Assembly (NCBI GenBank): GCA_003224815.1
Contig: QHZW01000110.1
Location: 1-34,543 of the forward strand
Origin: Acidobacteriota bacterium
GTDB lineage: Bacteria; Acidobacteriota; Terriglobia; Terriglobales; Acidobacteriaceae
DNA: 34,543 nucleotides
Direction of reading: 5' to 3'
The notes below the pieces were generated by a model. The model saw only the letters and a program-made list of their open reading frames with translations. It ran no database searches and was not told the DNA's origin. This document shows positions 2,958 through 29,266 of the stretch, piece by piece (position 1 is the stretch's first letter; each line of letters opens with the position of its first letter). The position numbers and the translations under genes were made by a program.

Positions 2958-4478
2958 TCATTCTCGTGGCGCCAGAGTTGGCCAATCCGTCACTTCAACC
3001 TTGCCATCCGCCTCCATCCGAAGAACTGGCCCATATAATCCCAGCAGTTCGCGCCGCCACCAGTTTCCAGTCGTGCGTTTCTCGTCCATGCTGGTGAACC
3101 AGTACTGCCACAGCATCGCTCGCACTTGTGGCGGAGGCGCACCAGCAAACGGATTTCGCGCGAACAACGCGAGCACATCTTTGTCGTTCGTCAGCAGCCG
3201 CACTTCGGTATTGGTCACGAAGGGGTATTCGCGGTACGAGCCCAGCGACGCAAACCACAAGTTCCAATCAAAGCGTGGCTGATACGGTGCGTAAATTCGC
3301 GGCGCCTCATTTAGCTCTTGTGGCTTGTTGCGGAATTTGTAAGGCGTCCAGGTCACGCCGTCGTTCGACCCTTGAAACTCGATCTCGTAGCGGGCTCGGG
3401 TCATGACCGCGAACAACCCGTACTGATTGGCAATTCGAAATGGTTCCAGCGCTACCACCGGAGACGTGGGCAACGGTATCCGCGCAAACATCCAGATGAG
3501 TTCCGCAGTGGTTGCGTAGAAGATCCACGTCAGTACTACTGCGCTGACGGCGAGGCCGATCGCACGCCAGTGTTGCCGGATTCTCCCAGCGGAGCCTGCC
3601 GTTATTGTGTCCTCTGCAGGTGTCTCCGCCTTTGCTTCGGATGGCGCCGGGACCACTTGCGATTTCCACCTCAGCGGCATGATTCCGGAAAGAAACTTGT
3701 CGTCCAGCAGCAACACCCCGAGTACGAGCACGAGATAGTTCAGGAAAGCATAGTTCGCCGTCAGAATCACGGGGATTTGCCAGATAGTCGCGATGAAGAA
3801 GCAGACAATCCGCCAACGCCGTGGCAAAGACAGCATCCACACGATCCCGAGTTCAAGAACGAAGGTTGCGACAACCGATCCCGCATGGAACCAGTGCGGC
3901 AGATGCTGGGCGTACCAGCCAATCCAGGTTGGCAGCGGGCCATTCTGGTAGTACTCATCCATGGCCGTGAAGTTGCGCCACTGGACATCGTGACTGAGCA
4001 GCTTTACCGCGCCGGATTGAAAGTAGATGCGAAACCACTCCCATTGAAGCAGGAACAAACTTGCGCGCGATGGCGGACTGGCAGCGCCCAACCCTGGCCA
4101 GAATCCCGCGGGAGCGAAGAATAAAGAAATAATCCCGGCTTCGAGCAACATGCCATCCGACTGATAACTTGAAAAGTCCTGCGCGGCGCTGACAAACGAA
4201 AGAAAACAGATGAAACAAACGACCAGCATTCCGCGTGGCCACACATTCACGACCAGCAGCAGGGAAGCGGCCATGCCGATCCAGCACAGGCCCATGAGCA
4301 TATGCGAACTGCTCGAAAACCAAAGCAGAGTAGGCGCATACCACAGCCGTTCCCATCTGCCGAGCGATTCCGCCGCCTGCTGTAGATAGCGGCCCGCCGG
4401 AAGTATTCCATCGGGGCCGATCAGGCCACGAATCTGGAAAAACATCCCATTGATCGCAGATGCGGGAGCGAAACTCAC
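2958..4478 (-). CDS. Lipase maturation factor (LMF1-like) family membrane protein, N-terminally short
   Basis: QIRGLIGPDGILPA near the N-terminus, several hydrophobic segments, and C-terminal YEIEFQGSNDGVTWTPYKFRNKPQELNEAPRIYAPYQPRFDWNLWFASL typical of the family. Confidence 0.75.
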   Translation of the reverse strand: MSFAPASAINGMFFQIRGLIGPDGILPAGRYLQQAAESLGRWERLWYAPTLLWFSSSSHMLMGLCWIGMAASLLLVVNVWPRGMLVVCFICFLSFVSAAQDFSSYQSDGMLLEAGIISLFFAPAGFWPGLGAASPPSRASLFLLQWEWFRIYFQSGAVKLLSHDVQWRNFTAMDEYYQNGPLPTWIGWYAQHLPHWFHAGSVVATFVLELGIVWMLSLPRRWRIVCFFIATIWQIPVILTANYAFLNYLVLVLGVLLLDDKFLSGIMPLRWKSQVVPAPSEAKAETPAEDTITAGSAGRIRQHWRAIGLAVSAVVLTWIFYATTAELIWMFARIPLPTSPVVALEPFRIANQYGLFAVMTRARYEIEFQGSNDGVTWTPYKFRNKPQELNEAPRIYAPYQPRFDWNLWFASLGSYREYPFVTNTEVRLLTNDKDVLALFARNPFAGAPPPQVRAMLWQYWFTSMDEKRTTGNWWRRELLGLYGPVLRMEADGKVEVTDWPTLAPRE

Positions 4479-28966: not shown

Positions 28967-28985
28967 TTTCCTTCACAAAAACTTA

Positions 28986-29005
28986 GGGGACGCTTTCGCG
29001 TCCCC
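28986..29005 (-). terminator. Intrinsic terminator between convergent units
   Basis: GGGGACGC-GAAA-GCGTCCCC followed on the minus strand by TAAGTTTTTG. Confidence 0.75.
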
Positions 29006-29031
29006 GAGGTTTACTTTTGCGATCGGCCGAT

Positions 29032-29079
29032 TTAGTGCTTTTTCTTGGTGGCCTTCTTCGCCTTTTTCTTGGTTGCCAT
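29032..29079 (-). CDS. 15-aa Lys-rich micropeptide MATKKKAKKATKKKH
   Basis: ATG at 29079, stop at 29032; upstream minus-strand ggaagggagaatagttaacATG provides an SD-like purine run. Confidence 0.6.
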   Translation of the reverse strand: MATKKKAKKATKKKH

Positions 29080-29143
29080 GTTAACTATTCTCCCTTCCAT
29101 TGTTCATGGATGATGCAACGGTCTTTTGTTGCGACTGTCTGAA

Positions 29144-29172
29144 TGTATAGAGTCAATAAAATGCGAAGTCAA
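29144..29172 (-). promoter_or_regulatory. Sigma70-type promoter of the micropeptide transcript
   Basis: Minus strand TTGACT (29172-29167), 17 bp spacer, TATACA (29149-29144). Confidence 0.55.
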
Positions 29173-29266
29173 GCAAAAAATGACGAACGAGAACGAACGA
29201 AGTGCAGTACGAAAGTCATTTGCGATGAAGTCCATCACAAAATTCTCAGAGCGCACTCGAGATCCC

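Follow-up and report, generated by a model that had tools for sequence, protein, structure and literature searches.

A conserved minigene for a lysine-rich 15-residue peptide with a structured message in Acidobacteriota

The window analyzed here is a stretch of 34,543 nucleotides of the Acidobacteriota contig QHZW01000110.1. On its minus strand, flanked by a thiolase gene (divergent) and a UvrD/PD-(D/E)XK helicase gene (convergent), lies a short element with the following features.

29207–29218, minus strand: upstream block, TGACTTTCGTAC here and GTGACTTTGGTRC in relatives (alignment of 30 loci)
29144–29182, minus strand: promoter region, conserved in the family
29182–29173, minus strand: T-rich stretch CATTTTTTGC ahead of the -35 box
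29172–29167, minus strand: -35 box TTGACT
29149–29144, minus strand: -10 box TATACA, separated from the -35 box by a 17-nt spacer
29115–29132, minus strand: leader hairpin 1, GCAAC-aaaagacc-GTTGC (from the fold, the complementary arms and a shuffle control)
29096–29110 (approximate), minus strand: leader hairpin 2, TCCAT-gaaca-ATGGA (from the fold and leader comparison)
29090–29095, minus strand: Shine-Dalgarno (SD)-like AGGGAG inside the near-invariant AAGGGAGAATAG
29032–29079, minus strand: open reading frame MATKKKAKKATKKKH, ATG to TAA, 15 amino acids including 8 Lys
28976–29005, minus strand: intrinsic terminator, GGGGACGC-GAAA-GCGTCCCC (29005–28986), TAAG and a T-run to about 28977

The original prediction, made from this DNA alone, placed here a TTGACT-17-TATACA promoter, an SD-like run, an ATG, the MATKKKAKKATKKKH frame, a stop codon and a GAAA-loop terminator, and the coordinates of all of them on the minus strand were confirmed. 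The proposed transcript of about 160 nt also holds, with the two leader hairpins to be added to it; it folds better than 200 of 200 shuffled sequences (z = -3.4). The element had further been described as antisense-convergent to the helicase gene. The two are indeed convergent, but the predicted transcript ends about 10 nt short of the helicase stop (28966) and does not overlap its coding part, so that the word antisense is misleading.

The promoter appears to be of the sigma-70 type. A consensus promoter scan of the window did not list the TTGACT-17-TATACA site because TATACA lacks the required last T, and the promoter is still conserved across the family, as is the terminator. The upstream block sits about 35 bp ahead of the -35 box, is kept in homologues, and may be either part of the divergent thiolase promoter or a regulator-binding site. 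The SD-containing AAGGGAGAATAG is invariant in all 26 of the 26 aligned loci. Elsewhere in the same genome a GGGAGAATAG..ATG arrangement was found just once more, the ATG there lying 1 nt past the block, and the possibility that the same leader serves further genes of this genome was rejected on that count. An upstream in-frame ATG (reading MEGRIVN-MATKKK...) was likewise rejected as the start codon, since the SD-to-ATG spacing varies outside multiples of three and is therefore not frame-kept, as a conserved start would require.

Both leader hairpins vary in sequence among relatives while their arms stay complementary. For hairpin 1, 40 different complementary arm pairs occur among 111 distinct leaders, including GCAAC/GTTGC, TGCAGT/ACTGCA, TGCGGTTTT/AGGACCGCA and CTGCAGCA/TGCTGCAG, a count that leans towards structure because the best stem was picked for each leader. 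The shuffle control on the leaders is independent of this choice of stem and gave a median z of -2.5, with 82% of leaders below -2. Hairpin 2 is variable in the same way (TCCAT/ATGGA, TCCAC/GTGGA, TCGATG/CATCGA) and is weak or lost in g34, a genus with many finished genomes. These patterns point to compensatory changes in the leader hairpins.

The reading frame was compared in 116 distinct homologues, where it spans 12–17 codons (24 codons in one of them, and one 12-codon reading has an odd end) and differs in length by whole codons only. The spacers on either side behave differently: the SD-to-ATG distance (4, 5 or 6) and the stop-to-terminator distance (16–35) fall in all classes modulo three. 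A KKH C-terminal end is present in 101 of the 116 homologues, AAA and AAG exchange freely as synonymous Lys codons, and third codon positions differ at 0.34–0.45 as against 0.05–0.18 for the other positions. Within length groups pN/pS is 0.07–0.20; most of the 116 homologues were retrieved with a pattern in which codons 1–7 are partly fixed, and 34 homologues found without that pattern gave much the same result (0.09–0.18). The whole-codon length differences and the pN/pS values indicate purifying selection on the frame. A chance ORF flanked by chance signals would be hard to dismiss on one sequence, given that 15 codons are too few for single-sequence statistics and that the promoter scan listed no site here, but conservation of the element, the keeping of the frame and the pN/pS values contradict it and leave it a probability close to nil. 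Comparative evidence thus strongly indicates that the minigene is transcribed and translated, and its promoter, SD and terminator suggest that it would be strongly expressed. The claim of an autonomous Lys-rich minigene is thereby strongly supported (frame kept in 116 distinct homologues, pN/pS about 0.1, promoter, SD and terminator conserved). Frame conservation in relatives, on which the original prediction had staked itself, was found, with the exception of one genus, g65, which has lost the ORF.

A short Lys-rich ORF followed by a terminator could also act in attenuation, as a leader peptide through which lysine or lysyl-tRNA is sensed. However, in nearly all of 30 loci examined the neighbors keep their orientation and similar sizes: the downstream ORF is long and convergent, and the upstream one is divergent and of thiolase size (judged by size and orientation). 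Because the next downstream gene is convergent, there is no same-strand gene to control; the free AAA/AAG exchange also speaks against such a sensor, and with the gene order rejecting a leader we consider this function highly improbable.

Within its own family the element is widespread. Covariance model R1 matches 173 of the 201 family genomes, representing 75 of the 80 genera, in a set of partly incomplete genomes and with rough model E-values; some genera have no match, and about 55 of the 173 positive genomes (counted by eye) have a second one. When the 197-bp DNA was used as a query, homologues spanning most or all of the element were found in about 60 of 151 family genomes at roughly 70–88% identity. 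A GTDB-wide pattern scan returned 110 stretches, and the 80 titles listed are all from Acidobacteria, most of them metagenome assemblies under names such as Acidobacteriaceae or Terriglobales. The exact pattern was not found in viral contigs, and carriage by phages was rejected on this ground.

Other genera of the family have longer variants, for example MATKKAAKKAPAKKAAKKATKK, whose promoter, leader and terminator are laid out in the same way; in two of these genera that were checked, the gene again adjoins the thiolase gene. On another contig of the same genome there is a second copy, MPAKKKAAKKKKH, with its own SD and terminator (L174, G000:C317, about 3807–3848). A promoter-like TTGACA...CAATATCTTG precedes this copy and is common to the paralogues in L175–L178. 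Longer Lys-rich proteins also exist in the family. In genus g31 (L190, L191), which has no minigene match, a long protein combines an acidic N-terminal part with a tail of AKKA repeats.

Beyond the family, minigenes such as MAKKAKGGKKKAGKKR or MAKKAAKKKAAKKAKKR were found in about ten other Acidobacteriota families, either single or as tandem twins about 150–290 bp apart; all of them have an SD, and most a terminator. Often the first member of a twin has the shared promoter TTGACA...CCATAATCT and the second the SD GGGGGG (twin loci L230–L233, L235–L238, L240, L242, L243, L245, L248, L249, L312 and L313). The structure of model R2 pairs the SD with the terminator and results from misalignment of the terminator; R2 served as a sequence profile only. 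Outside the own family it matched strongly (E below 1e-10) in about 37 of the genomes sampled, from ten families (by eye), a number that includes the 16 sequences of the model itself. Those strong matches that were checked are minigenes; weak matches in other families (E above about 1e-7), which are partly tails of longer Lys-rich proteins, were not counted. Common descent of these minigenes with the gene in the window is plausible. Some of them (L179, L180, L182, L184, L186, L187) seem, by eye, to be convergent to a 3' end resembling that of a cyclophilin-type peptidyl-prolyl isomerase.

No known family accounts for the element. Rfam gave no match at the gathering score, and its matches at E up to 10 were at chance level only. 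The 15-residue peptide of the window is too short for a family-model scan, and the longer variants used in its place had no match above the curated cut-offs of Pfam and NCBIfam, the best being HC2 in Pfam (19.2 bits against a cut-off of 40, one 32-aa variant only) and an H1-like model in NCBIfam (14.7 against 80). A search of the accessible literature found no description of this lysine-rich micropeptide gene of Acidobacteria.

The composition of the peptides is distinctive, with a net charge of about +8 (+7 to +10 across peptides), no hydrophobic residue, and KKxKK or KKAAKK spacing like that of histone H1 or HU tails. A hydrophobic, membrane-active type I toxin peptide was rejected, there being no L, I, V, F, W or Y. 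A Lys-rich tail is absent from those HU proteins that were found in the same genome. Our best explanation, which we hold at a probability of about 55%, is a joint one: the element would be a monocistronic gene with a promoter, a two-hairpin leader, an SD, a 15-codon ORF and its own terminator; this gene would belong to a group of minigenes for peptides of 12–27 aa that extends across several Acidobacteriota families, often in two copies; and its product would bind nucleic acid as a free polycation of the kind seen in histone H1 or HU tails. The peptide is presumably disordered. Its composition and its likeness to H1 tails suggest that it would act as a free-standing tail and bind nucleic acid non-specifically, and the bound peptide would neutralise or compact the nucleic acid; the transcript might also function as an RNA in its own right. 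DNA, rRNA, polyphosphate or another partner would each be compatible with the peptide as a ligand, and a nucleic-acid ligand is what we infer; the original label of a nucleic-acid-binding micropeptide fits both the composition and the longer H1-like variants such as MATKKAAKKAPAKKAAKKATKK.

Two other functions of a polycation were considered. The peptide might bind rRNA and be a small component of the ribosome or of its hibernation machinery, like bTHX and eL41, which are small basic ribosomal proteins of about 25 aa rich in Lys and Arg. Their size and charge are similar, but bTHX and eL41 have a fixed sequence, whereas here length and spacing vary (12–24 codons) and second copies are frequent, a pattern seldom expected of a specific site on the ribosome; nor is the locus tied to ribosomal genes in the window or in the 30 loci, and we regard a ribosomal role as rather unlikely. 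Organisation of polyphosphate by the peptide would have a precedent in the H1-like AlgP, reported to organise polyphosphate granules (PMC9239181), and would agree with the H1-like composition; no link to polyphosphate genes was seen within the window, however, and this role is less probable still.

Genus g65 bears on whether the message does more than encode this peptide. At its locus, four species keep the promoter, the leader, GGGAG, a 3' segment resembling the one in relatives and the terminator, and have no ORF. The block from the -35 box to the terminator is conserved and its flanks are not, and the terminator stem has changed in a compensatory manner (GGGGGACGC/GCGTCCCCC, AGGGAACGC/GCGTTCCCT, AGGGAGCGC/GCGCTCCCT). 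In the g65 loci L261–L264 (also L253:2830–3040) the leader hairpins and the GGGAGCGCAGGCAAACGCAACC core are retained and the Lys ORF is absent. Either an RNA function of its own or slow decay could produce such a locus, and the four diverged species together with the compensatory changes would favor an RNA function. The peptide is thus not needed in g65, where the RNA persists although the ORF is gone; the RNA may play a part of its own, and some of the conservation seen elsewhere may be owed to it.

The element could accordingly be read as a dual-function RNA, a regulatory transcript that also encodes a peptide and of which g65 retains the RNA function alone. The kept promoter, leader, GGGAGCGCAGGCAAACGCAACC core and terminator of g65, with compensatory terminator-stem changes in this one lineage, argue for it, as do the covarying leader hairpins of the coding relatives. 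On the other side, the stretch between stop codon and terminator is not conserved in the clade of the window, so that no conserved pairing seed is evident there, and the conservation of leader and terminator could also reflect mRNA stability and expression. We treat a dual function as a tentative reading, somewhat short of even odds. The same tentative standing applies to a two-layer gene, in which a structured small RNA would encode a protamine-like polycationic micropeptide and also have an RNA function of its own that survived clean loss of the ORF in one genus. As for the dual-function sRNA proposed at the outset, its coding half is borne out by selection on the ORF, and its RNA half, which gains independent support from g65, where the ORF is absent and the RNA kept, may hold as well.

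On the comparative evidence, the element is a real, unannotated gene, predicted to make a 15-residue, Lys-packed peptide from its own small structured message. Acidobacteriota rank with the most abundant bacteria in soil, and they seem to possess a very small peptide, similar to a histone tail, that gene finders have overlooked; to our knowledge, DNA packaging in this phylum has been little studied. If the reading is true, a gene for a polycation of 12–27 aa, often in two copies, would add a new kind of component to the nucleoid or the ribosome, and histone-like tails could exist as separate genes. The ORF-less genus g65 is a natural experiment in which coding and RNA function could be told apart.

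Among known systems, sRNAs that also encode a small protein, such as Spot 42/SpfP and SgrS/SgrT, share with this gene a short structured transcript, a very short ORF and an intrinsic terminator. They differ in that the conserved core of the present gene is, in most genera, its ORF, and the indication of an RNA role comes from one genus. Chlamydia Hc1/Hc2, Pseudomonas AlgP and the H1-like protein of Burkholderiales resemble the peptides in their strongly basic, Lys/Ala-rich repeats of the KKAAKK type, and the 22–32-aa variants resemble one stretch of an H1-like tail (weak HC2 match, one 32-aa variant). The H1-like proteins are much longer, with 165–237 aa given for Hc2 (PMC2848022), whereas here the whole protein has 12–27 aa and comes with its own promoter and terminator. 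Similarly, the Lys-rich C-terminal extensions of HU and other proteins have the same composition, but in these Acidobacteriota the tail is a separate gene.
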